In this document: in pieces, positions 909 to 15,560 of the stretch
Position numbering within the stretch: the stretch's first letter is position 1
How the letters are laid out: every line of letters starts with the position of its first letter
Origin: Deltaproteobacteria bacterium
GTDB lineage: Bacteria; Desulfobacterota; DSM-4660; Desulfatiglandales; Desulfatiglandaceae
Length of the DNA: 35,352 nucleotides
Reading direction: 5' to 3'
Assembly (NCBI GenBank): GCA_021737425.1
Contig: JAIPDZ010000009.1
Location: forward strand, 1 to 35,352
Program-made: the position numbers and the translations under genes
Notes under the pieces: generated by a model
What the model saw: only the letters and a program-made list of their open reading frames with translations
Told to the model about the DNA's origin: nothing
Databases searched by the model: none

Positions 909-1715
909 ATGATCGGATCTACCCATAAGAGGGCGCTCAAGGCATTGGGCACGGCGCTGCGGACCTTGACCATCATCCCTTGCGGCCGCAGTGGGGAGGA
1001 TGACTTCGGATCATCGCTTATGTGGTTTCCGTTTGTGGGGACCGTTCTGGGTCTGATCCTCTACGCCATAGGATGGATGTGGATGAGGTTGCCCTTTCCC
1101 CCATGGCCTGCCCTGGCGGCACTACTCATGATGGGGGCGGAGATCTGGTTGACCCGGGGGCTTCATCTGGACGGTCTGGCGGACTGGGCTGATTCCATCG
1201 GGGGGGGTGGGGAGCGGCTAAGGCGTCTCGCCATCATGAAAGACACTTCGGTGGGGGCCTTCGGGATCCTGGCATTGATCCTCGTACTCCTGGGGAAATG
1301 GATTGCCTTTGAGAGACTGCTCTGTTCGGGCACCGTTATTTGGGTCGTGCCTGTGTTTTGTCTGTCCAGGGCCGTGATGGCGGTCCTGCTGATGGCGCTT
1401 CCCTATGCCCGGGCAGAGGGAGGTATGGGCAAACCGTTTGTCACCACCGTCGCCCCTATCCGGCGGACTCCGGTATATGGGGTGACGTTGGCGGTCTGTC
1501 TACTGTTTGGTCCTTTGGGGGTATCGCTGGGTATAGCAGGATATCTTCAGGCCGCCCTGTTCAAGACCCGCATGAAACATGTATTCGGGGGCATCACCGG
1601 CGATCTTTTGGGTACGGCCAACGAAATGGTAGAGCTCACCTTTTTGGTCCTGTTGGCCGTGCCCGGAAAGGGCCTCCTGGTGTATACGGGCTGGAATTGG
1701 CTCTTTACTTGTTGA
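909..1715 (+). CDS. cobS: Adenosylcobinamide-GDP ribazoletransferase (cobalamin synthase)
   Basis: CobS joins the activated corrinoid (adenosylcobinamide-GDP) to alpha-ribazole (phosphate), the final step of cobamide assembly at the inner membrane. The 268-residue product has the normal length and several hydrophobic membrane segments. It carries the family signature HLDGLADWADSIGG at about residues 91-105, and KDTSVGAFG shortly after. The ATG at 909 is preceded by an AAAGGAA element about 13 bases upstream, rather far for a ribosome site. It lies directly downstream of cobT. Its last 11 bases overlap the end of the convergent nitrilase-family gene. A cobamide supply fits the corrinoid-dependent MttB-type genes that follow, although cob genes are common without them. 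Confidence 0.95.
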   Translation: MIGSTHKRALKALGTALRTLTIIPCGRSGEDDFGSSLMWFPFVGTVLGLILYAIGWMWMRLPFPPWPALAALLMMGAEIWLTRGLHLDGLADWADSIGGGGERLRRLAIMKDTSVGAFGILALILVLLGKWIAFERLLCSGTVIWVVPVFCLSRAVMAVLLMALPYARAEGGMGKPFVTTVAPIRRTPVYGVTLAVCLLFGPLGVSLGIAGYLQAALFKTRMKHVFGGITGDLLGTANEMVELTFLVLLAVPGKGLLVYTGWNWLFTC

Positions 1716-2673
1716 TCCGTAGGAGGGCTCCGCTCTTTGACAAATGCTCCAACCTGGGTTTTTCGTACAGGATCTTTTGAAGTTCCCGGTGGGTAAAATA
1801 GGGATCGTCGTCCCGCAGATAGGGGAGCAGGATCTTCTTCTGTCTGAGCACGTCTCTGGAGATATTGGTGGAGATGACCTGCTCATCATATAAAGGCGCC
1901 TTGACCATGGGTTTCCCGAAGGGATTGATAATTTCGCTCCCGCCCCAAAAGTGAAACACCTCTTCATGCAAGCGGGATGCGGAAGGCCCTGTTGGGGCCA
2001 TGGAAGCCGTTTCCGCGGCCAGAATGGAGCGTCGTTCCTGCCATCGTTCTTCTCCCACCCGATTGACACAGATGTTGTAAATACCGAAGATGCGGGAGTA
2101 AAACTTATTGATGATCCCCCAGCTTTCAATATTGGAGAACTCGCTCCCCATGGAGCCCTGGGAGGAATTGAACATGGAGACAAACACGTCGGCCTTCTGG
2201 ACCACCCCGAGATACGGGAGGGAAGGATGCCACAGGTCATTGCATATAAATACGGCGATGGTGAAATCCTTCAGTTTGAAGACCGGGACATGCTTTCCGG
2301 AGGCAAAATATTTTCGTTCCTCGAATACGCCGTAATTGGGGAGATTCAGTTTCCTGTGGGCGTACTGGATCTTCCCGTCCACAGCCACCAGGGCCGAGTT
2401 GTAAAAATTCATGGCCGGGCTCTCTTCAATGAACCCGATCACGGCCGCGGTCCCGCGGGTGGCCTCTGCCAGGGCCTTGACCTCGGGTGAATCCATGCGA
2501 AGGGCCACTTCATGGTACCGTTGGCCTACAAAATACCCGGTAAGGGCGAGTTCCGGAAAGGCCACCAGTTGAGCCCCCTGGTCGGCGGCCTCCCGGATTT
2601 TGGAGATGACATCCTCCAGATTGTCCCTGAGGTCCAACAACTTTGGATTTGTCTGATAGGCGAAGACTTTCAT
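1705..2673 (-). CDS. Carbon-nitrogen hydrolase (nitrilase superfamily)
   Basis: This 322-residue protein belongs to the nitrilase/amidase superfamily, which hydrolyses amide or nitrile C-N bonds through a Glu-Lys-Cys triad. The triad is visible: E41 in FPELALTGYF, K108 in HRKLNLPNYGVFEE, and C144 in FICNDLWHP. The C144 context resembles the NAD-synthetase-amidase and beta-ureidopropionase-like branches, but the substrate cannot be told. A C-terminal stretch of about 60 residues goes beyond the core fold. It is the last minus-strand gene of the MttB cluster but is separated from MttB-like 1 by a repeat island. The start codon follows a dispersed repeat by 5 bases, and no clear ribosome-binding site is seen. 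Its 3' end overlaps cobS. Family call is firm; role in the cluster is inferred. Confidence 0.85.
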   Translation of the reverse strand: MKVFAYQTNPKLLDLRDNLEDVISKIREAADQGAQLVAFPELALTGYFVGQRYHEVALRMDSPEVKALAEATRGTAAVIGFIEESPAMNFYNSALVAVDGKIQYAHRKLNLPNYGVFEERKYFASGKHVPVFKLKDFTIAVFICNDLWHPSLPYLGVVQKADVFVSMFNSSQGSMGSEFSNIESWGIINKFYSRIFGIYNICVNRVGEERWQERRSILAAETASMAPTGPSASRLHEEVFHFWGGSEIINPFGKPMVKAPLYDEQVISTNISRDVLRQKKILLPYLRDDDPYFTHRELQKILYEKPRLEHLSKSGALLRINK

Positions 2674-2952: not shown

Positions 2953-4131
2953 CTAATATAGAAAGCATTTCCCGGTATTTTTGAGGGTGTGATCGTCTCT
3001 CATGTAGTTGGCCTGACTGCTGTTCCGGGCGATTACCTCGAATCCTTCCGGGTCATACGGGTCCAGTTCAAAGTCCGGGGCCTGGTCCGCCGTGGTTTTC
3101 TCACACAGTTCGATATGCCTTTTGAGTTTTCCGATGGAAAAGGAGATCAATTCCTTGAGAAAACCAAAGGAATGCCGCATCTGGTGAAAGCCGTATTTTT
3201 TCATTAACGCAAAGCCCGCCACGGCCTCTTCCTCGGCCTTTTTATTGGGGCTTTCCTGGCTCGTAGTGCATGCGGTTTGGATGGAAGGAATATCCAGCTT
3301 CCGGTTGATCTTTTCCTGGAGCAGGTTGGCCACGTTGTGGGATACCAGCCCCAGGTCCACCGCGTAGTTTTTCTGGATATTGGCGATGGAAGGGAGCCCC
3401 GCATGCACCACCGTAATCCCGGGATTGATCAACTGGGCCAGGGTGATGCCGAATAATCCTTCGGCATGGGTCAGGGTCAGCAGTCCGGACATGGAATAGG
3501 GTCCTGACAGGCCTGCCATGGGCATGGTGGAGACGTAGATGGGGATCCCCTTTTTGACACATGAAAAAAAGGCGGGCATCATACTCTCGATGATGTTGAG
3601 CGGGCTGTTGATAATGGAAAACTGGACCGTCAATTTTCCCCTGGTATGGTGAACCTCCTCTGCGCGCGCGATCCCTTCATCCGTGACCGCCGCCACATAG
3701 ATGGGTTTATCACAGTGTTCAATGATGGTATCGATGACTTTCACTTCCTGGCCTTTCAACAGGACCCCCCGGGCCATGAAGTGAATCACATCCGTATCAT
3801 TGACCGTTTTGGCGATTTCGGCCAGATGGTCAAAGGTGGGGGGCACCAGTTCACCGCTCTCGTCATCGTATACAAAGGGGGCGGTCCCGCCCACCCCAAA
3901 GGAATTGTCCGGTATCCAGTACTGGTCCCTCTTGGGTGTGGTCCCCAGGGCCTGTTCCACCAGCGGTCTTAATACGTGAATATGACCGGTGGCTTCATCA
4001 AAGGCGGCCATGCCCGTGTCTTCAAATACCTGTCTGACCTCAGGGGAGACACATTTAACCCCTACTTCCTCCAAGACCCTGAGGGCATCATCATGTATCT
4101 GGTCCAAAAGCTCATGTTGTTCTATATCCAT
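2953..4131 (-). CDS. MttB-superfamily methyltransferase 1 (non-pyrrolysine, short form)
   Basis: The protein resembles the trimethylamine:corrinoid methyltransferase family (MTTB). Members move a methyl group from a quaternary or tertiary amine to a corrinoid protein; non-pyrrolysine relatives include the glycine-betaine enzyme MtgB. Family signs are the N-terminal DALRVLEEVGVKC, GVGGTAPFVYDDESG, STMPMAGLSGPYSMSG, THAEGLFGITLAQLINPG and the late DDHTL. It has no internal amber codon. The stop is TAG, but read-through would only enter the MITE-like repeat. At about 392 residues it ends soon after DDHTL, shorter than the usual 470-490. The start chosen is ATG 4131, with GAGG nine bases upstream. 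ATG 4146 and TTG 4185 are alternatives. It pairs with the paralogue at 8267-9484. Substrate unknown. Confidence 0.85.
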   Translation of the reverse strand: MDIEQHELLDQIHDDALRVLEEVGVKCVSPEVRQVFEDTGMAAFDEATGHIHVLRPLVEQALGTTPKRDQYWIPDNSFGVGGTAPFVYDDESGELVPPTFDHLAEIAKTVNDTDVIHFMARGVLLKGQEVKVIDTIIEHCDKPIYVAAVTDEGIARAEEVHHTRGKLTVQFSIINSPLNIIESMMPAFFSCVKKGIPIYVSTMPMAGLSGPYSMSGLLTLTHAEGLFGITLAQLINPGITVVHAGLPSIANIQKNYAVDLGLVSHNVANLLQEKINRKLDIPSIQTACTTSQESPNKKAEEEAVAGFALMKKYGFHQMRHSFGFLKELISFSIGKLKRHIELCEKTTADQAPDFELDPYDPEGFEVIARNSSQANYMRDDHTLKNTGKCFLY

Positions 4132-4221
4132 ATCCGTATACCTCATTGTTTTAAGACAGGACTTCCAGCATCCTTTGGTTTGCAAAAAAACTTAATTCCC
4201 TGTTGATCCTGTCCAATGTTT

Positions 4222-5070
4222 TCAGATTCTCACCTGCATCCCATCGTGGCTGAACTGCATGTGGTCCAACCGGTTCGCTATCTCCCGGTAATCCTCATAC
4301 GTCCGGTTCCAGTACTCCTCCAAGTGAACAAAAAGGACCTGTTTCGCACCTATCTTCCGGGCCAGGGAAACGGTCTGTTCAAAGGTGTAGAGGGTCCTGC
4401 GGGATATGTGATCAGGCGGGTAGGTAAAGCCGTGCTTGAGCCCGTCTTCGAACATCCCCGGTTGAATGACCAGCAAATCGGCATCCTGGACTTCCTTTCT
4501 GTCTTCCGGAAACGGTTTGATGTCACACGGCGCATACACCATTTTGCGCCCGTCCTTTTCAAACACGTGGACAAAAGAAACCTGGGACCCCCGATCCACC
4601 GGTATGGCGGTAAGGCGGGTCCGGCCTATGGTGATCCGTTCCTCAAAGGGGATGGACTCCACAAACCCCTGCTGTTCGTAAAACCCGATGAGCGGACCGT
4701 ATATGGATCGAACATCCGTTAGCCGATCCCGCAGGATCCGAGGGAGCACCAGTCGGATTCGCTTGTGTTCATAGGCCCTCCAGGTACGGAAGTCGAGGCT
4801 GATCTGTTCCACCACCCTGAATCCTTCAATATGATCCGGGTCCAGGTGGGTAAACAACAGGTGATCCACCTGTTCAATCCGTTCCCGGTTGAGCTGAAGC
4901 GCAATCTCCGCCGGCGTATCAATGAGGAGATTTTCGTCATGCAGAAAGGAGGAAGGGCCGGTCCTTTCATAAGGCCGGCCCTTGCGTCTTGCCTCTTCAC
5001 AAACCCGGCACTTACAGAGCGGTTTGGGGATGACCATGCATCCTCCTGAACCGAGGATCGTCAACTCCAC
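4222..5070 (-). CDS. Metallo-beta-lactamase-fold hydrolase with Cys-rich N-terminus (PhnP/PqqB-like)
   Basis: This 282-residue soluble protein starts with a beta strand and GSGG loop (LTILGSGG). A cysteine group follows (C11, C19, C21, C24), as in PhnP/PqqB-like members where such cysteines bind a structural zinc. Then come LLIDTPAE and the metal-site region LLFTHLDPDHIEG at residues 71-83. The usual HxHxDH reads H75-x-D77-x-D79-H80, so the second histidine is aspartate. Further candidate metal ligands are D213 in YAPCDIKPF and the late LFVHLEEYW. The start is GTG, with GAGG eight bases upstream. Family members cleave phosphodiesters, RNA or cyclic esters; nothing here fixes the substrate. 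It sits between the FAD oxidoreductase and MttB-like 1, same strand. Confidence 0.8.
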   Translation of the reverse strand: MELTILGSGGCMVIPKPLCKCRVCEEARRKGRPYERTGPSSFLHDENLLIDTPAEIALQLNRERIEQVDHLLFTHLDPDHIEGFRVVEQISLDFRTWRAYEHKRIRLVLPRILRDRLTDVRSIYGPLIGFYEQQGFVESIPFEERITIGRTRLTAIPVDRGSQVSFVHVFEKDGRKMVYAPCDIKPFPEDRKEVQDADLLVIQPGMFEDGLKHGFTYPPDHISRRTLYTFEQTVSLARKIGAKQVLFVHLEEYWNRTYEDYREIANRLDHMQFSHDGMQVRI

Positions 5071-5121
5071 CGCGCTGGCCTCATTTCGTTCCCACCTTTT
5101 CGGAATAATCGCTTTTCAGCC

Positions 5122-5141
5122 GGAGCCGCATGTGCGGTTCC
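5122..5141. other. Short hairpin between oxidoreductase and hydrolase genes
   Basis: An 8-bp stem (GGAGCCGC with GCGGTTCC, one G-T wobble) closes a 4-base ATGT loop in the 86-base gap after the FAD-oxidoreductase stop codon. No T-run follows on either strand, so it is not a standard Rho-independent terminator. It could tune message decay or translation of the next gene; this is inference. Confidence 0.4.
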
Positions 5142-5156
5142 CACCTCAACAGGAAC

Positions 5157-6488
5157 TCAGCTCCATGGAAACGGGCTGTGGGACACCGGGTGGAGTTCGC
5201 CCTTTTCGTACCGGTCAAACCGGAAGGGTTTGAGCAGGGCCTGCTCCTTTCCCAAGACCTCTTCGGCCACCAGTTGGCCCACACCGATCATCTTGTACCC
5301 GTGGTTGGAGTCCAGGATCATGTAACAGTTCTGCTTCATGACATCGAAAATGGGAAAGCTGTCCGGGGTAAAGCAGCCCAGTCCTCCGGACGGTTCATTC
5401 TTGTACAGGTGGTACTTATCCTCATACCGCTTCTGGCAATGGGCCAGGGCCGAGGTCCACATGTGAACGAACTCGGGGGTTACGGTATAATCGGGAGAGT
5501 CGATCCCATAGGGATCCACCTGGATATCGCCTTCCACAATATAGGGGGCCGCTCCCCCCTGGACCCCGCCGAAACCGAAGTCGGGCTTATAGTAGATGCC
5601 CCACATTTCATCGGTAATCAAGGAGCCGTCCTCACTGGAGAACAGAGGGGCCACTGAATCCACATGGATCACCGGGGGCATGTTCCCCTGATTGTCCATG
5701 GCGTATTCGGGCTCCACGCCCAGGACCCCTTCCACGAGACACCAGTAGGTCCACATCTGATTCCCGGTATGGATCTTTCCGTCCGGGCCCTTGATGTCGA
5801 TCTGGTTAGGCAGTCCCAGCATGTCCCAGAAGGACTTGGCCCAGGGACCCGGGGCGGCAATGACCCAGTCGCACTGGATGTCGCCCTTGGACGTTTCCAC
5901 TGCGGTGACCGAGTCTTTATCGGTTTTGAGGCCGGTGACTTCCACCCCGCTGAGGATACGCACCCCCTCGGCCTCGGCCTTGTCGGCCAGCCGGTACAGG
6001 GATTTCATCTGGTTGGCATATCCCCCCTTTTTCTCATGCAGTACCGAGGTGATCGCCCGGGCCTGCCAGTCATGGAAGATATTCTCCCGCATGTAGTCGA
6101 GGCATTCTTTTTCTCCCTCCACAAACAGGGAGTCATACCCGATGGCCTTTTGCTGTTTGTAGATCTCGGCCACGTCCTCATGCATGGGTTCAGGGGAAAT
6201 CTGCATGTACCCCACCGGATGATACCCGTATTTTTCCTGATCCTCCTCCCATATGGCCACACTGTGGGCCATGAGTTCCCGCATGGCCGGCTGAAAATAG
6301 TTGTTGCGGATGACCCCGCAGGCGATACCCGAGGCCCCGGCCCCGATGGCGGTCTTGTCTATGACCAGGACATCCTTGCCCGAGCCGTCCCCCCGTTCCT
6401 TGAGGGCCTTTCCCAGGTGCCAGGCGGTGCTGAGGCCGTGGATTCCGGCCCCAATAATGATATATTTACAATGCGTAGGAAACGACAT
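5157..6488 (-). CDS. FAD-dependent oxidoreductase of the DAO / sarcosine-dimethylglycine oxidase family
   Basis: The 443-residue protein has the DAO-type fold that oxidises amines such as sarcosine, dimethylglycine, glycine or D-amino acids. The ADP-binding glycine motif GAGIHG is at residues 13-18, the second strand ends VLVIDK, and GAGASG follows. The late motifs GCFTPDSFPIFD and HGYKMIGVGQLVAEEVLG are typical of the family. A tryptophan- and acid-rich insertion (about residues 240-330) sets it apart from small sarcosine oxidases. The start is ATG 6488, with AGGGAG about 6 bases before it. In this cluster a natural guess is oxidation of an N-methyl amine made or released by the MttB-like proteins, but the substrate is not shown by the sequence. 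Confidence 0.85.
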   Translation of the reverse strand: MSFPTHCKYIIIGAGIHGLSTAWHLGKALKERGDGSGKDVLVIDKTAIGAGASGIACGVIRNNYFQPAMRELMAHSVAIWEEDQEKYGYHPVGYMQISPEPMHEDVAEIYKQQKAIGYDSLFVEGEKECLDYMRENIFHDWQARAITSVLHEKKGGYANQMKSLYRLADKAEAEGVRILSGVEVTGLKTDKDSVTAVETSKGDIQCDWVIAAPGPWAKSFWDMLGLPNQIDIKGPDGKIHTGNQMWTYWCLVEGVLGVEPEYAMDNQGNMPPVIHVDSVAPLFSSEDGSLITDEMWGIYYKPDFGFGGVQGGAAPYIVEGDIQVDPYGIDSPDYTVTPEFVHMWTSALAHCQKRYEDKYHLYKNEPSGGLGCFTPDSFPIFDVMKQNCYMILDSNHGYKMIGVGQLVAEEVLGKEQALLKPFRFDRYEKGELHPVSHSPFPWS

Positions 6489-6579
6489 GGAATTCTCCCT
6501 TCATCTTTTTAGATTCTTACCACATATTTTCTACGAAAGAGATGACAACGTTATTAACCTCTTTGATCCACTGTGCCAA

Positions 6580-6631
6580 AGGTGTCAGGTTTCGGGTGTC
6601 AGGGATAGTTCTTTACTGAAACCTGACACCT
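6580..6631. repeat. Long perfect inverted repeat
   Basis: AGGTGTCAGGTTTC (6580-6593) is repeated as its exact reverse complement at 6618-6631, with a 24-base loop that contains a further partial copy (GGTGTCAGGG). It lies in the 224-base gap between the synthetase-like and FAD-oxidoreductase genes. No U-tract follows on either strand. It resembles mobile intergenic palindromes more than a terminator. Confidence 0.75.
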
Positions 6632-6712
6632 GAATACTGCCGACGTATATGGTCACAGCCTTTAGGGCTGCATTGGCGAATGCAATTATGTGAAACCTTG
6701 AACGGCTGCCCC

Positions 6713-8197
6713 CTACTTAAAAGGGTCCCACCGAATGGTCTGCCGCTCATATGAGGGCGGAAACTGCTTCAGGAACTCATCGTAGTAATACAACTCCTTG
6801 AAAGACGCGAACGGCAGCCCGTAGGCGGCCTTCGGCCTCTGTTTGATTTCATTGGGGTCGATCTTCTGAGAGATGATCTCGTCCATTACATCGTCCATTC
6901 CCGAGCCCATGGCGAACCTGAGCTTTTCACGGTTGGCGATCTGTTCCGGGAGCATGTCTCTGAAGGCCTCTCGTAAGATATACTTTTCGATCTGCCTTTC
7001 TCCGTAAATCTTCCAATCCATGGGGATCCTGTCGCAGAAGGCCACCACCTTGGTATCCAGAAAAGGGGTCTTATAGGCCACGGCATTGGCCATCCATGCC
7101 CGGTCCAGCCTTCTGAGGGCCGTGTTGTAGGCAATCTCCAGGAGTTTCTTGGCCAGCCGTTCCCTTTGTTCCGGGCTTTTGACCTTGGGGTTTTTGAGCA
7201 CCATCCGGTATCCGCCGAAGAGTTCGTCGGCCCCTTCTCCCACCAGGACCGCATCGCTGTAGTTTTTGACCATCTTGGAGGCATAATAGTTGGACAGAAT
7301 GCCGGAGATGCAATCCTCGTCAAAGCTCTCCAAATACCAGACCGCATCCGCCAGGAAATTATCAATGTCTTCGTCGGTGATGTCATAGATATGGTGCTCC
7401 ATACCGAGAAAGTCGGCCATCAATTTGGCATTCTCCAGATCCGGTCCGGGCGCGCTTTGGACCGCCACCGTGAACAGGTGCAGATCCGGATTAAATTCCT
7501 TGGCGATGGCCGCGATAATAGAGCTGTCCAGCCCCCCGCTCAGGGAGACCGCCTTCACCCCTTCCATCCGTTCTTCCACCGATTCGATCAACAGGTCCCG
7601 CACCGTTTTCACGGCCTCGTCAAAATGCCCCAACTGGGGAATAGCAGGCTCAAACTTGTCAAACTCCTTCATCCCCTTCTTGGTGGAGTAAATCTGACCC
7701 GGGGCCAGCTCATGGATATCAAAGGGGATGTGATCCGCCAGCCCCTTCATCTCAGTACAAAAATAAAAGCGCTGATCCGCCTCCCCGTAAAAAACCGGTC
7801 TGGCCCCCACATGGTCCCGGGCCAGGATGACTTCTTCATCCTTTTCCACCACCGCGCAGGTAAAGCTCCCGTCCAGACGGGAAAAGCAGTTCCGCTCGTA
7901 TTTTTCCCAGTACTCCTTGAAAAGCTCCAGGTCACTCATCCCTTCAGGCCGATCGTTGAACAGCTCCCCGTCAAAAAGGATATAAGGGGGGTCGTCATTG
8001 ATGGCGGTGCAGTGGGTGGTCCTGGGGGTCAGGTTGATCTCAGCTGCGCCCACCGAACCCCTGGCGTCGGGAAGGGTCCTGACATGGACATTGTCCGGCC
8101 CCCGGTGACGGGTAAGCTTGATCATCTTCCCCAAGGGTTTGGTGGTGTCTTCTTCAATTCTCCCGTGTTGTGATACGATTCCGCAGATACTTGCCAT
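6713..8197 (-). CDS. Asparagine-synthetase-like ATP-dependent amide ligase with degenerate glutaminase domain
   Basis: The layout is that of AsnB: an N-terminal class II glutaminase-like domain (about 1-190) and a C-terminal ATP-pyrophosphatase synthetase domain with PP-loop SLSGGLDSS (S220-S226) and VLVGEGADELFGGY. AsnB enzymes activate a carboxylate with ATP and form an amide. The glutaminase site looks altered. The cysteine is residue 5 (MASICGI) rather than the first residue after Met. The conserved NGE is D76-G-E. The usual HxRLxI arginine region reads GAAEINLTP. HRGPD (31-35) is kept. No in-frame start would make Cys5 N-terminal. It may use free ammonia or an amine, as beta-lactam-synthetase-like relatives do without glutaminase activity; this is inference. 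It lies 70 bases downstream of MttB-like 2. Confidence 0.85.
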   Translation of the reverse strand: MASICGIVSQHGRIEEDTTKPLGKMIKLTRHRGPDNVHVRTLPDARGSVGAAEINLTPRTTHCTAINDDPPYILFDGELFNDRPEGMSDLELFKEYWEKYERNCFSRLDGSFTCAVVEKDEEVILARDHVGARPVFYGEADQRFYFCTEMKGLADHIPFDIHELAPGQIYSTKKGMKEFDKFEPAIPQLGHFDEAVKTVRDLLIESVEERMEGVKAVSLSGGLDSSIIAAIAKEFNPDLHLFTVAVQSAPGPDLENAKLMADFLGMEHHIYDITDEDIDNFLADAVWYLESFDEDCISGILSNYYASKMVKNYSDAVLVGEGADELFGGYRMVLKNPKVKSPEQRERLAKKLLEIAYNTALRRLDRAWMANAVAYKTPFLDTKVVAFCDRIPMDWKIYGERQIEKYILREAFRDMLPEQIANREKLRFAMGSGMDDVMDEIISQKIDPNEIKQRPKAAYGLPFASFKELYYYDEFLKQFPPSYERQTIRWDPFK

Positions 8198-8266
8198 TAT
8201 AAAAAACCTCCAATTAATGGAATGTTGGGTTGATATTACGACTCAGTAGTCCAGTTGCTGGTAAAA

Positions 8267-9484
8267 TTATTCCACAAAGACCTTGCCGATATTGGCGGTG
8301 GTGAGGGGATCTTCCATATACATGCCCAGCGCAATCCGTTTAATGGACTCCATGCCCCTCTCATCATAGCCGGGCATCTCCACCTCAGGGGCGTCCTCCG
8401 GGGTTACGGTCTCTGCGATCTCAATGGCCTTTTCCAGTTTTTCAAAGGAAAAATCAATAAGATACCTCAGAAAGGCAAAGGGGTGCCGGATCATATGGAA
8501 CCCGTATTTTTTGCACATGGCCTGTCCCATCCTGGCATCCGCGTAGGCCCGCTCCGTGGGATGTTCTTCATGGGTGGTGCCCCCGCTCTGGAAGGTGGGC
8601 AGATCCAAAATGAGATTGAGATGAGTCATGAGGATATTGAGTAAATTATGACTCACCAGGCCGTAATTGGGGTTGTATTCGATCCTGGGATCCGCGATGG
8701 TGGGGTATCCGGCATGGACACAGGTGGTTCCCTCATTTAATAACTGGGCCGCACAGATGCCGAAGAGGACCTCGGCATGGGTCATGGCCAGGACCCCGTT
8801 ATAGCAGAAGGGGGCGCTGATGCCGGCCATGGGCATGGCCGAGATAAACACCGGCAACCCTGCCTGCACCACCTTGACAAAATGCTCGGAGAAGTTTTCA
8901 CTTACCTCGAGAGGGGGACGGGTCAGGCAGAAGACGATCATAATGTTGCCCCTCTCCTCATGGATTTCCTTGGCCCGGGCCAGGGCCTGATCCGAGGTCA
9001 CGGCGAAGTACAACGGTTTGTCACAATTCTCCGCCATGATGTTCATCTGTTCCACCTCGTCCTTTAATTTCACCCCTCTGCCCATCCCCGCTACCATGTC
9101 TTTTTCCTGGGCGATCCGGGCAATCCGGGTGACGTGCTCAGGAGTGGGCGGCAGGCCGCCTGTGCCGGCTTCTTCGTCATACACGTAAGGGGCGGTTCCG
9201 CCGATAAAAAAACTGTTTAAGGGCACAAAAAAATCCTTTACCCCCGGGACAGTGGTAAGGCATCGTTTTACCAGGTCCGTGGTCACGAATACCCTGTTTT
9301 CATAGGTAAATGCGAGACCCTCGGACTCAAATTGCTGAAAGGCCTGAAGCATCTCGGGCTGTTTGCAGCCCACCCCCAGATTCTCCAGAATCCACAGGGC
9401 GTCCTCGTGCACCCGGAGGAGCATGTTTACGGTTTCGTCGCCCAGTAGCGATTTTGACTTTTCCAACTGCTTGTCGTTCATCAT
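8267..9484 (-). CDS. MttB-superfamily methyltransferase 2 (non-pyrrolysine, short form)
   Basis: This is a paralogue of the gene at 2953-4131, with many shared blocks: FIGGTAPYVYDEEAG, SAMPMAGISAPF, THAEVLFGICAAQLLNEG, VHAGYPTIA, LVSHNLLN and KKYGFHMIRHPFAFL. MttB-family enzymes pass a methyl group from an N-methylated amine to the cobalt of a corrinoid protein. No amber codon interrupts it and it stops with TAA. It ends with NIGKVFVE, matching NTGKCFLY in the paralogue, so the short C-terminus looks native. The DDHTL block of the paralogue reads MEDPLTT here. The start is ATG 9484, with AGGTG four bases upstream; a GTG at 9490 is also in frame. It follows a candidate promoter/operator and is the first enzyme gene of the cluster. 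Confidence 0.85.
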   Translation of the reverse strand: MMNDKQLEKSKSLLGDETVNMLLRVHEDALWILENLGVGCKQPEMLQAFQQFESEGLAFTYENRVFVTTDLVKRCLTTVPGVKDFFVPLNSFFIGGTAPYVYDEEAGTGGLPPTPEHVTRIARIAQEKDMVAGMGRGVKLKDEVEQMNIMAENCDKPLYFAVTSDQALARAKEIHEERGNIMIVFCLTRPPLEVSENFSEHFVKVVQAGLPVFISAMPMAGISAPFCYNGVLAMTHAEVLFGICAAQLLNEGTTCVHAGYPTIADPRIEYNPNYGLVSHNLLNILMTHLNLILDLPTFQSGGTTHEEHPTERAYADARMGQAMCKKYGFHMIRHPFAFLRYLIDFSFEKLEKAIEIAETVTPEDAPEVEMPGYDERGMESIKRIALGMYMEDPLTTANIGKVFVE

Positions 9485-9530
9485 TTTCACCTTTTTCCTT
9501 ACAATTATTTGGTTTCCTATTTATATACTA

Positions 9531-9575
9531 TGACATAAAATATTTCCATATAAAACATTTTCAGCTGTCTGTCAA
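9531..9575 (-). promoter_or_regulatory. Candidate sigma70 promoter with operator-like core before MttB-like 2
   Basis: On the minus strand, TTGACA (9575-9570), a 17-base spacer and TATATG (9552-9547) form a good -35/-10 pair. GAAATATTTTA (9546-9536) lies right at the expected start point. It matches the centre of the palindrome at the marR promoter. The predicted leader to ATG 9484 is about 55 bases. Confidence 0.55.
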
Positions 9576-9613
9576 GGGGTGTTGGAAATGAGCGGTTTAG
9601 GCATCCCCGTGAC

Positions 9614-10129
9614 TTATAGGCTGGGGACCGTAAACGGCTTTTCCGGCAGCTTGGGATTCTGTATGTCCAACATCCCTGTAAGCTTCTGAAGAGACTGAAT
9701 AATCTGACTCCTTTCCTGGTCGGGAAGCCCTGTAAGGCCTTCCACCATCTGCTCCTGTATGGGAAGGGGTGCATGCATGGCCAGTTTTTTCCCCTCTTTT
9801 GTCAGGCTAATGGTGATTACCCGGCGGTCTTTGCTGTTGCGTACCCGCTGTAGAAATCCCTTGTTTTCCAGGCGGTCGATGACACCGGTAACCGTGCTGG
9901 AATTGACCATGATGTGTTTGGCAATCTGAGATGGGGGAATGGGCCCCATTTCATGAAGGACCAGGATACAATGCAGTTGAGATGCGCTCAGATGGTATTT
10001 TTTGATCAATTCTTTGGTATAGAGTTCTCTGGCCCTCACCAGTTTTCGAATCAGTTGTATGATTTGTTTTATTTGGCCCTGTACATGACTTGAACCCACA
10101 TCGAATGATTCCTGATTTTCTGTTAACAT
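9614..10129 (-). CDS. MarR-family transcriptional regulator
   Basis: The 171-residue protein has the MarR winged-helix layout. An N-terminal dimer helix comes first, then a helix-turn-helix around SQIAKHIMVNSSTVTGVIDRLENKGFL, and the wing RNSKDRRVITISLTKEGKKL with the typical D-R-R and LT signature. A C-terminal helix follows. MarR proteins usually repress nearby genes until a small ligand binds. It is the first gene of the minus-strand cluster, 129 bases upstream of MttB-like 2. Both it and the next gene have a candidate promoter with the same operator-like core. It is therefore the likely local regulator, perhaps answering to the cluster's substrate; the ligand is unknown. Confidence 0.9.
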   Translation of the reverse strand: MLTENQESFDVGSSHVQGQIKQIIQLIRKLVRARELYTKELIKKYHLSASQLHCILVLHEMGPIPPSQIAKHIMVNSSTVTGVIDRLENKGFLQRVRNSKDRRVITISLTKEGKKLAMHAPLPIQEQMVEGLTGLPDQERSQIIQSLQKLTGMLDIQNPKLPEKPFTVPSL

Positions 10130-10218
10130 GGCGTATCATCCCGCAACGATTAGAATGTGATGGTATGTTGACTGGTCTCCAATGGTTGATTATCCACCCA
10201 TGTAATGTAACCATGGCA

Positions 10219-10266
10219 TGAAATATTTCAACTGCAAATATATCTCATGTTATTATTTTATGTCAA
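10219..10266 (-). promoter_or_regulatory. Candidate marR promoter with palindromic operator
   Basis: On the minus strand, a perfect TTGACA (10266-10261), an 18-base spacer and TATATT (10242-10237) are followed six bases later by the perfect palindrome TGAAATATTTCA (10219-10230), which covers the expected start point. A repressor bound there would block transcription, the usual mode of MarR autoregulation. The leader to ATG 10129 is about 100 bases. Confidence 0.6.
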
Positions 10267-13175: not shown

Positions 13176-13215
13176 ATGTTAGGAAAGTCATCTCTACTTC
13201 TCAAATCCGGTGGTC

Positions 13216-13977
13216 ATGATCCAGCTCAGAGGCGTTTCAAAGACATTTGACGGCGGCACATCCTATGCCGTAAAAGACCTCTCCTTCCAGGTGGAAGCGG
13301 GAGAGACCGTGGTTCTGCTGGGTTCTTCGGGCTGCGGCAAGACCACCACCCTGAAGATGATCAATCGCCTTGTGGAGCCCACCCATGGGCACATCGAGGT
13401 GGGCGGTGAGGACGTGATGAACCAGGACCCGGCTCTCTTGCGCCGGCGCATCGGGTATGTATTTCAGGGCATAGGACTTTTTCCCCACATGACCATCGAG
13501 CAGAACGTCGGTCTCGTGCCCCGTCTTTTGGGCTGGTCGGCCCGAAAGCGGGGAGAGCGGGTACGGGAGCTTCTCCGCCTGGTGGGTCTTGCCCCGGAAG
13601 ATTATGCGGACCGGTTCTCTGAGGCGCTTTCCGGGGGCCAGCAGCAGCGGGTGGGGGTGGCCCGGGCCCTGGCCGCTGATCCCGCCTATCTCCTCATGGA
13701 TGAGCCGTTCGGCGCCCTGGATGCCCTGACCCGTGAGGCCCTGCAGCAGGAACTGCTGGGGCTGAAGAAGAAGCTCGAGAAGACCATCATCTTTGTCACC
13801 CATGACATCTTTGAGGCCCTGCTCCTGGGCGATCGCATCGTGATTCTCCACCAGGGAAATGTGCAACAGATCGGGACCAAGAAGGAGATCCTTTCCGCAC
13901 CGGCCACCCCCTTTGTTCGAGATCTGTTTGGAAAACCGGCCAAGCAGTTGGCCGATTTCAAGGATATCCTGAAATGA
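13216..13977 (+). CDS. Glycine betaine/choline-type ABC transporter ATP-binding protein (OpuBA/OpuCA-like)
   Basis: This is the ATPase subunit of an osmoprotectant-type importer. Walker A is GSSGCGKTT, the Q-loop FQGIGLFPHMT, the signature LSGGQQQRVGVARAL, and Walker B YLLMDEPFGALD, followed by the switch HD in VTHD. The phrase IGYVFQGIGLFPHMT is typical of the QAT (quaternary amine) subfamily. At about 253 residues it lacks the C-terminal CBS domains found in OpuAA/OpuCA of Gram-positives. ATG 13216 is chosen; GTG 13210 is also in frame. Its stop overlaps the next gene's ATG (ATGA at 13974-13977), which indicates translational coupling. Confidence 0.9.
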   Translation: MIQLRGVSKTFDGGTSYAVKDLSFQVEAGETVVLLGSSGCGKTTTLKMINRLVEPTHGHIEVGGEDVMNQDPALLRRRIGYVFQGIGLFPHMTIEQNVGLVPRLLGWSARKRGERVRELLRLVGLAPEDYADRFSEALSGGQQQRVGVARALAADPAYLLMDEPFGALDALTREALQQELLGLKKKLEKTIIFVTHDIFEALLLGDRIVILHQGNVQQIGTKKEILSAPATPFVRDLFGKPAKQLADFKDILK

Positions 13978-15560
13978 GTGCCGAACCTTGGATTACATTT
14001 GTCTCTGATCATCTGTCCGAACTGTGGATAAGGACGGGTGAACATCTCATATTGACCGGGTTTTCCACCATTTCAGCGCTTCTCATCGGGGTGCCTCTCG
14101 GGATCCTGATATTCAGAAATTCCTGGCTCAGGGGGCCTGCATTGGGGGGGGTGGGGATTCTTCAGACCATCCCCAGCCTGGCCATGCTGGTATTTCTGCT
14201 GGCCCTCCTGCAGAAGATCGGGGTACTGCCTGCCGTGATCGCCCTGACCTTGTACGCGCTCCTTCCCATTGTCCGAAATACCTTCACCGGGCTTACCGGC
14301 GTCTCCCCTCAGGTCATGGAGGCTGCCAAGGGAATCGGTATGACCGAGGGGCAGCAGCTCCGCATGGTCCGGCTTCCGCTGGCCACCCCGGTGATCGTTG
14401 CGGGCATTCGCACCGCAGCAGTGGTCAGTGTGGGCATCGCCACCCTTTCGGCATTTATCGGCGCCGGGGGCCTGGGGCAGTTTATCAACCGGGGCCTTGC
14501 ACTGTACAATACAAGGCTCATTTTGCTGGGCGCCGTGCCTGCGGCCATGCTGGCCCTTTTGGTTGATTTTGCCATCGGAAGCTTTGAATGGGGGCTCAGA
14601 CCGGTTAGAAAGCAGGACAAGCCCGGGTCTGCCAGGGCCATTATACGACCGGTGGCCCTGATGATGCCCCTGTTGCTGATCGTGATCGGGCTTTTCGCCT
14701 ATTTCACCCAACCCTCCCTGGGGACCCGGCCTGCATCCGTGTCCAATGGCGGGACCGTCACCGTTGCCACCAAGAATTTTACGGAACAGCTGATTCTCGG
14801 GGAATTGATGGCCCAGGTACTGGAGGCCAAGACGGACCTCAATGTGATCCGCCGCTTTAACCTGGGCGGCTCCATGATCTGCCATGGAGCCCTCATGAAC
14901 GGTGAGATCGACCTGTATGCAGAATACACCGGGACCGGCTTGACCGCCATTTTGAAGGCCCCGGTCATAGCCGATCCTGAAAAGGCCTTTTACTATGTAA
15001 AAGCCGCCTACCGGAAGCAGTACGACGCCGAGTGGCTCAGACCGTTCGGGTTTAACAATACCTATGCCATTACCGTTCGTACCCAGGATGCGAAACAATA
15101 TGGATGGCATACCATCTCTGATCTCAAGGAAGCGGCCCCGGGACTGAAGGCAGGATTCACCGCCGAATTTGCGGAGAGACCGGATGGCTACCCCGGGTTG
15201 AGCAAGGCCTACGGGTTTGAGTTCGGAGGAATCAGGGACCTGGATCCTTCCCTCATGTACGAGGCCGTTTCCAAGGGCGAAGTGGACGTAATCTGTGCCT
15301 TTGCCACGGATGGTCGAATCGCCGCCTACCGTCTCACACCCCTGAAGGATGATCTCCAATTCTTTCCCCCCTACCATGCGGCCCCGGTGGTGCGGGAGGC
15401 GGTGTTGGCGGAACATCCGGAGGTGGAGCAGGCCCTGTCCCTACTCGAGGGGATTTTGGATGACCAGACCATGCAGCAACTCAACTTTGAGGTGGATGCA
15501 AAAAAGCGGGATGCGGGCCGGGTGGCATCTGAGTTTCTAAAGAAAAAAGGGGTCATTTAG
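13974..15560 (+). CDS. ABC permease fused to quaternary-amine substrate-binding domain (OpuB/OpuC-like)
   Basis: The 528-residue protein is a fusion. Residues 1-215 form the inner-membrane permease with about six segments and the EAA loop EAAKGIGMTEGQQLRMVRLPLATP. After another membrane segment near residue 225-245, the rest is an OpuAC-type binding domain facing the periplasm (TVATKNFTEQLILGELMAQVL, then DLYAEYTGTGLTAIL). This family imports glycine betaine, choline, carnitine or similar compounds. With the ATPase it makes a complete two-gene system. The fused form needs no separate lipoprotein or periplasmic binding protein. It may feed the MttB-type enzymes with methylated amines, but it lies about 3 kb away on the other strand and could simply serve osmotic balance. 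It ends with TAG. Confidence 0.9.
   Translation: MSAEPWITFVSDHLSELWIRTGEHLILTGFSTISALLIGVPLGILIFRNSWLRGPALGGVGILQTIPSLAMLVFLLALLQKIGVLPAVIALTLYALLPIVRNTFTGLTGVSPQVMEAAKGIGMTEGQQLRMVRLPLATPVIVAGIRTAAVVSVGIATLSAFIGAGGLGQFINRGLALYNTRLILLGAVPAAMLALLVDFAIGSFEWGLRPVRKQDKPGSARAIIRPVALMMPLLLIVIGLFAYFTQPSLGTRPASVSNGGTVTVATKNFTEQLILGELMAQVLEAKTDLNVIRRFNLGGSMICHGALMNGEIDLYAEYTGTGLTAILKAPVIADPEKAFYYVKAAYRKQYDAEWLRPFGFNNTYAITVRTQDAKQYGWHTISDLKEAAPGLKAGFTAEFAERPDGYPGLSKAYGFEFGGIRDLDPSLMYEAVSKGEVDVICAFATDGRIAAYRLTPLKDDLQFFPPYHAAPVVREAVLAEHPEVEQALSLLEGILDDQTMQQLNFEVDAKKRDAGRVASEFLKKKGVI

Follow-up and report, generated by a model that had tools for sequence, protein, structure and literature searches.

A predicted MarR operator in the marR and mttB2 promoters of a Desulfobacterota gene cluster with MTTB-family proteins

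The marR-mttB2 cluster and its two promoters

The DNA analyzed here (the window) is a 35,352-nucleotide stretch from a member of the Desulfatiglandaceae (assembly GCA_021737425.1, contig JAIPDZ010000009.1). It carries a marR gene followed by a cluster with two MTTB-family genes (Table 1). The marR product matched the winged-helix MarR domain PF01047 with an E-value of 1.7e-19 (69.9 bits, cut-off 24.6), and the mttB2 product matched PF06253 (MTTB) at the family level (E-value 2.1e-20). Against TIGR02369, the MTTB proteins of the window scored 67.7 and 81.5 bits, below the equivalog cut-off of 525. The mttB2 and mttB1 products are both short (407 and 410 aa; cluster 2953-9490) and 43% identical to each other, and they adjoin asparagine-synthase-like and FAD-oxidoreductase genes. 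A domain search recognized no corrinoid protein among the tested cluster proteins. An ABC ATPase and a fused permease/OpuAC substrate-binding protein (betaine-type uptake) are encoded at 13210-15560, 3 kb from the cluster; a window search with the relatives' profile described below gave no operator match before this transporter.

Table 1. Genes and predicted control elements of the marR-mttB2 region, and the unlinked asnB2 gene
Feature	Position	Strand	Basis
marR, MarR-family regulator (171 aa), putative operator binder	9614..10129	-	Pfam
mttB2, MTTB-family protein (407 aa), proposed main target	8267..9490	-	Pfam
Asparagine-synthase-like gene of the conserved cluster	6713-8197	-	domain match; gene order in relatives
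FAD oxidoreductase gene of the conserved cluster	5157-6488	-	domain match; gene order in relatives
MBL-fold gene of the conserved cluster	4222-5070	-	domain match; gene order in relatives
mttB1, second MTTB-family gene	2953-4185	-	domain match; gene order in relatives
Carbon-nitrogen hydrolase gene, cluster end	1705..2673	-	domain match; gene order in relatives
marR -35 box TTGACA	10266-10261	-	sequence; promoter consensus scan
marR -10 box TATATT, 18 bases after the -35 box	10242-10237	-	sequence; 11/12 consensus bases
Palindrome TGAAATATTTCA, marR core of the preliminary description	10219..10230	. (10230-10219 read on -)	sequence; exact copy in L066
Predicted operator TTTCAACTGCAAATATATCTCATGTTATTA, over spacer and -10 box of the marR promoter	10226..10255	+	relatives' motif
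Overlapping second reading of the marR operator, TTGCAGTTGAAATATTTC	10220..10237	-	13.8 bits, motif columns 1-18; spacing
mttB2 -35 box TTGACA	9575-9570	-	sequence; kept in orthologs
mttB2 -10 box TATATG, 17 bases after the -35 box	9552-9547	-	sequence
GAAATATTTTA, mttB2 core of the preliminary description, 3' end of the degenerate operator	9546-9536	-	sequence
Degenerate predicted operator CAGCTGAAAATGTTTTATATGGAAATATTTT, over spacer, -10 box and start point of mttB2	9567-9537	-	profile HMM
asnB2, lone asparagine-synthase-like gene with a strong predicted operator (L171, contig C265 of the same genome)	4266-5741		

A preliminary description of this DNA had assigned -35 and -10 boxes to marR and mttB2, and both their letters and their spacings agreed with the sequence. 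Promoter consensus matches in the region were not above chance (4 found, 3.9 expected). In orthologs, however, the TTGAC box and its distance to the operator are both kept. The two promoters are also alike over a wider stretch, GAAATATTTYATGYCATRG, with 16 of 19 bases identical; among 1000 dinucleotide-shuffled pairs, 3 were as alike as this.

The same description had proposed that a short core at each start point, TGAAATATTTCA or GAAATATTTTA, was the shared operator-like sequence. Both promoters do share an element, but these cores are only parts of a unit of ~30 bp. The palindrome TGAAATATTTCA occurs a single time in the 4.14-Mb genome, and its exact string was found in 1 of 27 marR upstream regions and in none of 30 marR-mttB2 intervals; it was therefore rejected as the operator itself. 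The one case is L066, among the nearest relatives, where the 12 bases recur just 3' of the -10 box in the marR promoter.

A motif of relatives that accompanies marR

About 30 genomes from the same family and order contain orthologs of the regulator, 51-61% identical, and many of these are followed by an mttB2 ortholog. A scan of named genomes with an mttB2 alignment gave orthologs with 64-84% identity across 61 loci. Most of the loci belong to Desulfobacterota MAGs; only a few are from named strains (Desulfonema magnum, strain NaphS2 and Desulfobacterium TRIP AH-1). The gene order marR, mttB2, asparagine-synthase-like, FAD oxidoreductase, MBL-fold, mttB1 and carbon-nitrogen hydrolase recurred in most loci. 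The MarR recognition region, V-SSTvTGv-DRLE-K (helix region SSTVTG-DRLE), was nearly invariant in the approximately 30 orthologs.

Unseeded expectation-maximisation on the marR-mttB2 intervals and marR upstream regions of relatives, with the window excluded, yielded a de novo motif of ~30 bp, TTTCARYTSAAATAATTTgAgATgATATtA. Because marR-linked promoters had served as its training set, the motif was scored by leave-one-out. At a threshold of at least 12 bits, it was present in 23 of 28 mttB2 promoters with an adjoining marR and in 1 of 24 without marR (Fisher p 6e-9, which overstates independence because the loci are mutually related and some are near-duplicates). A locus was counted as lacking marR only if at least 600 bases of upstream sequence were present, as contig ends of fragmentary MAGs can hide this gene. 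Among the five misses, L099, L077 and L110 carry an operator elsewhere near marR, L102 scores 11.4, and only L089 is without any operator. When the marR-mttB2 gap is short (24 bases in L082, about 100 in L110), the operator precedes marR; L099, where marR is farther away, has the operator downstream of that gene. In strain NaphS2 (L092) the operator is at 9842-9871. Only three matches of at least 12 bits (best 14.6) occurred away from marR, mttB2 and close cluster genes in 817 kb of loci. The motif thus follows the regulator at the level of the locus. Comparison of the two regions in related genomes, which had been suggested at the outset, revealed an element of ~30 bp conserved with marR, whereas the cores are seldom retained letter for letter. 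In most relatives no clear operator precedes marR itself, so autoregulation of marR is not general.

In 30 of 33 listed sites the motif starts 26-34 bases after the TTGAC of the -35 box and hence covers the start point. The two cores had been described as lying where a repressor would block RNA polymerase; the predicted element does cover the -10 box and start point, but it lies partly upstream of the cores.

Two further features were observed in the relatives. L077 (4259-5420) has two tandem MarR genes before mttB2, whose products are 58% and 43% identical to that of the window, with an operator of 18.1 bits between them. In addition, 23 leaders were examined between operator and mttB2, and 5 of them (L072, L121, L092, L120 and L109; 0.2 expected after shuffling) contain terminator-like hairpins with T-runs; such leader hairpins were not seen in the window. 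It is possible that these long leaders provide extra control in relatives, by attenuation or a small RNA. A known riboswitch or other RNA element was rejected, as a search of the window and seven loci gave no Rfam match; the loci with leader hairpins likewise had none.

We searched the window with a gapped profile HMM built from 33 relative sites. The first match fell in the marR promoter (10225-10259, plus strand; 14.2 bits, E-value 0.0022) and the second in the mttB2 promoter (9567-9537, minus strand; 12.1 bits, E-value 0.0099). None of 300 column-permuted profiles reached the score of either promoter. When each promoter was shuffled 2000 times, its score was reached twice. The shared cores might be viewed as a chance likeness between two A+T-rich promoters, given that they are short, A+T-rich and rarely conserved literally, and that consensus promoter matches in the region do not exceed expectation. 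However, a motif derived independently from relatives lands on both promoters, and the permuted and shuffled controls reject such a likeness, which we regard as highly improbable.

The two predicted sites differ in strength. With a motif from the mttB2 promoters of relatives only, TTTCAACTGCAAATATATCTCATGTTATTA in the marR promoter was the top match in the window on either strand (18.8 bits; runner-up 7.9). The overlapping TTGCAGTTGAAATATTTC gave the second best score in the window for the sub-motif of columns 1-18, and it sits 29 bases after TTGAC, the position usual among relatives. The palindrome TGAAATATTTCA forms one end of the predicted operator, and its TTTCA half is the first half-site, so that the entire marR site spans about 10219-10255. 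The predicted mttB2 operator is degenerate, and without gaps it scored 7.9 bits only, in contrast to the strong marR operator.

This difference raises the possibility, which we hold less probable than control at both promoters, that the working operator lies only in the marR promoter, that mttB2 and the following genes are controlled via read-through, and that the mttB2 site is a decayed relic. It would fit the bit scores, the short gap of 123 bases between marR and mttB2, in which no terminator was found, and the short-gap relatives with an operator before marR. On the other hand, the profile ranks the mttB2 promoter second in the whole window, very few shuffled versions equal its score, and it retains a good -35 box and spacing.

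Matches across genomes and other candidate targets

We also searched 28 genomes with a model that used sequence only and was built from 29 relative sites. In 14 genomes the best match had an E-value below 0.01, and in all 14 it was beside a marR ortholog; in seven genomes without a close marR ortholog, no match was below 0.15. The association of motif and regulator therefore also holds across genomes. An element bound by another regulator that travels with the cluster, with MarR acting elsewhere, would be consistent with a negative result: motif position 9 is either C or G, and covariation of MarR residues with this base was sought but gave no signal in the DNA-binding region. This explanation is unlikely, however, since the motif tracks marR both at the locus and genome-wide, including cases where marR adjoins genes other than mttB2.

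In the genome of the window, the top match (17.8 bits) was on contig C265, in a promoter of the form TTGACA-17-TATATT-GTATTGAAATGATTTCAACTGAAATA before the lone asparagine-synthase-like gene asnB2. Its product is 84% identical to AsnB of the marR-mttB2 cluster of strain NaphS2. A lone asnB2 again had the same operator, ATTGAAATGATTTCAGTTGAAATA, in genome G020, where the promoter is otherwise different. Apart from such lone copies, the asnB2 orthologs of the order are nearly all cluster genes; about 10 genomes have the ortholog next to mttB2 or marR. On contig C125 (L172, 2006-2043), a 16-bit operator-like site follows TTGACT and TATCAT before a HEAT-repeat gene, at a normal promoter position, and further matches of about 12 bits were located on other contigs. 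The marR site of the window ranked only 8 in this search (E-value 5.7), and the mttB2 site was missing from the own-genome matches at an E-value of up to 10; thus, both are weaker than the family norm. Weak matches in relatives (G004:C107, G051:C110 and G025:C284) were within coding sequence and look like chance.

Where marR is located away from mttB2, the operator is found before or beside betaine transporter genes of OpuAC type (G057, G056) and an operon that combines an MTTB-family gene with one for a B12-activation domain (G077, G056). These neighbors suggest quaternary-amine metabolism. The expectation that the cores would supply a motif for finding further sites was borne out in part: the operator retrieved plausible targets, but the cores named at first are not the conserved unit.

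Proposed repression by MarR and relation to known systems

These data are best explained if MarR acts as a local, ligand-released repressor; we consider this probable. Its predicted operator of ~30 bp overlaps the -10 box and start point in the marR promoter and, as a weaker site, in that of mttB2. In this genome the marR promoter would be the strong control point, and mttB2 may partly be read from it. A MarR dimer, or two, would bind the TTTCA/TGAAA-type half-sites and block RNA polymerase at these positions. MarR would be released by a small molecule, for which a betaine-like quaternary amine used as substrate, or its breakdown product, is the likeliest candidate. This release would induce marR, the mttB2 cluster and one or more distant genes, among them asnB2 on contig C265. 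The operator, its placement in the promoters, its conservation and its tie to marR are seen in the sequence comparisons, and from these we infer MarR binding, repression and a sensed ligand. Control of marR and of the enzyme genes by MarR, as first proposed, is supported by the top two window matches in the two promoters and by an operator that tracks marR, but the mttB2 part is tempered by its weak site; repression of both is most likely. Activation is known for some MarR-family proteins, and MarR might activate, or both activate and repress, the two promoters. We find this quite improbable, since a position over the -10 box and start point beside a near-consensus -35 box is the usual place of a repressor.

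The circuit is probably tied to the breakdown of betaine-like compounds. More tentatively, we envisage a Desulfobacterota regulon, hitherto undescribed, in which one MarR repressor would recognize a 30-bp operator of three half-sites over the start point, with two dimers on overlapping palindromes. Its targets would be the MTTB/asparagine-synthase-like/FAD-oxidoreductase/carbon-nitrogen-hydrolase cluster, the lone asnB2 in trans and, in relatives, genes for betaine uptake and B12-linked demethylation, and the repressor might be dedicated to sensing a quaternary amine, or else a new compound processed by an MttB-asparagine-synthase pathway. Anaerobes commonly carry MTTB-family proteins, and for many of these neither substrate nor regulation is known. 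An operator specific for a regulator offers a route to all genes of a pathway, unlinked ones included, and the present motif has already retrieved unlinked asnB2, a cluster member in other genomes. The inducer of the window MarR would indicate the substrate of the cluster.

Among characterized regulators, the best NCBIfam match of the window MarR was FabT, a MarR-family repressor of fatty acid synthesis, at 65.7 bits, far under the equivalog cut-off of 200. FabT sites are A+T-rich palindromes with a TTTGA-type half-site, and the predicted window operator is also A+T-rich and palindromic; in contrast to FabT, however, the window cluster has no fatty-acid genes.

The approach resembles the RegPrecise-style comparative regulons of Proteobacteria (PMC5343134), which likewise rest on sites that are conserved among orthologs of a regulator. 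HmgS, a novel MarR regulator, is one member of that set, and the paper contains no MttB or betaine term. Searches of an open-access library gave no description of a MarR-MTTB regulon.

A palindromic site in the regulator's own promoter is common in the MarR family, and the ligands sensed by the reviewed repressors are mostly of phenolic type (PMC5487221). Like HcaR, CouR, PcaV and HucR (PMC5487221), the window MarR lies beside catabolic-type genes and has a palindromic candidate operator in its own promoter, predicted to be placed such that RNA polymerase would be blocked. It differs from these in its neighbors (MTTB-family, asparagine-synthase-like and oxidoreductase genes), in a gene order that is tandem rather than divergent, and in an operator motif of its own. 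The MTTB-family enzymes of the cluster recall the MtgB/MttB-type quaternary-amine methyltransferase systems. The window MTTB proteins depart from these systems in their short length, in scores far under the TIGR02369 cut-off and in the lack of a recognized corrinoid protein among the tested cluster proteins; in some relatives, however, the same marR and operator are found by MTTB/B12-activation-domain genes and OpuAC betaine-transporter genes.
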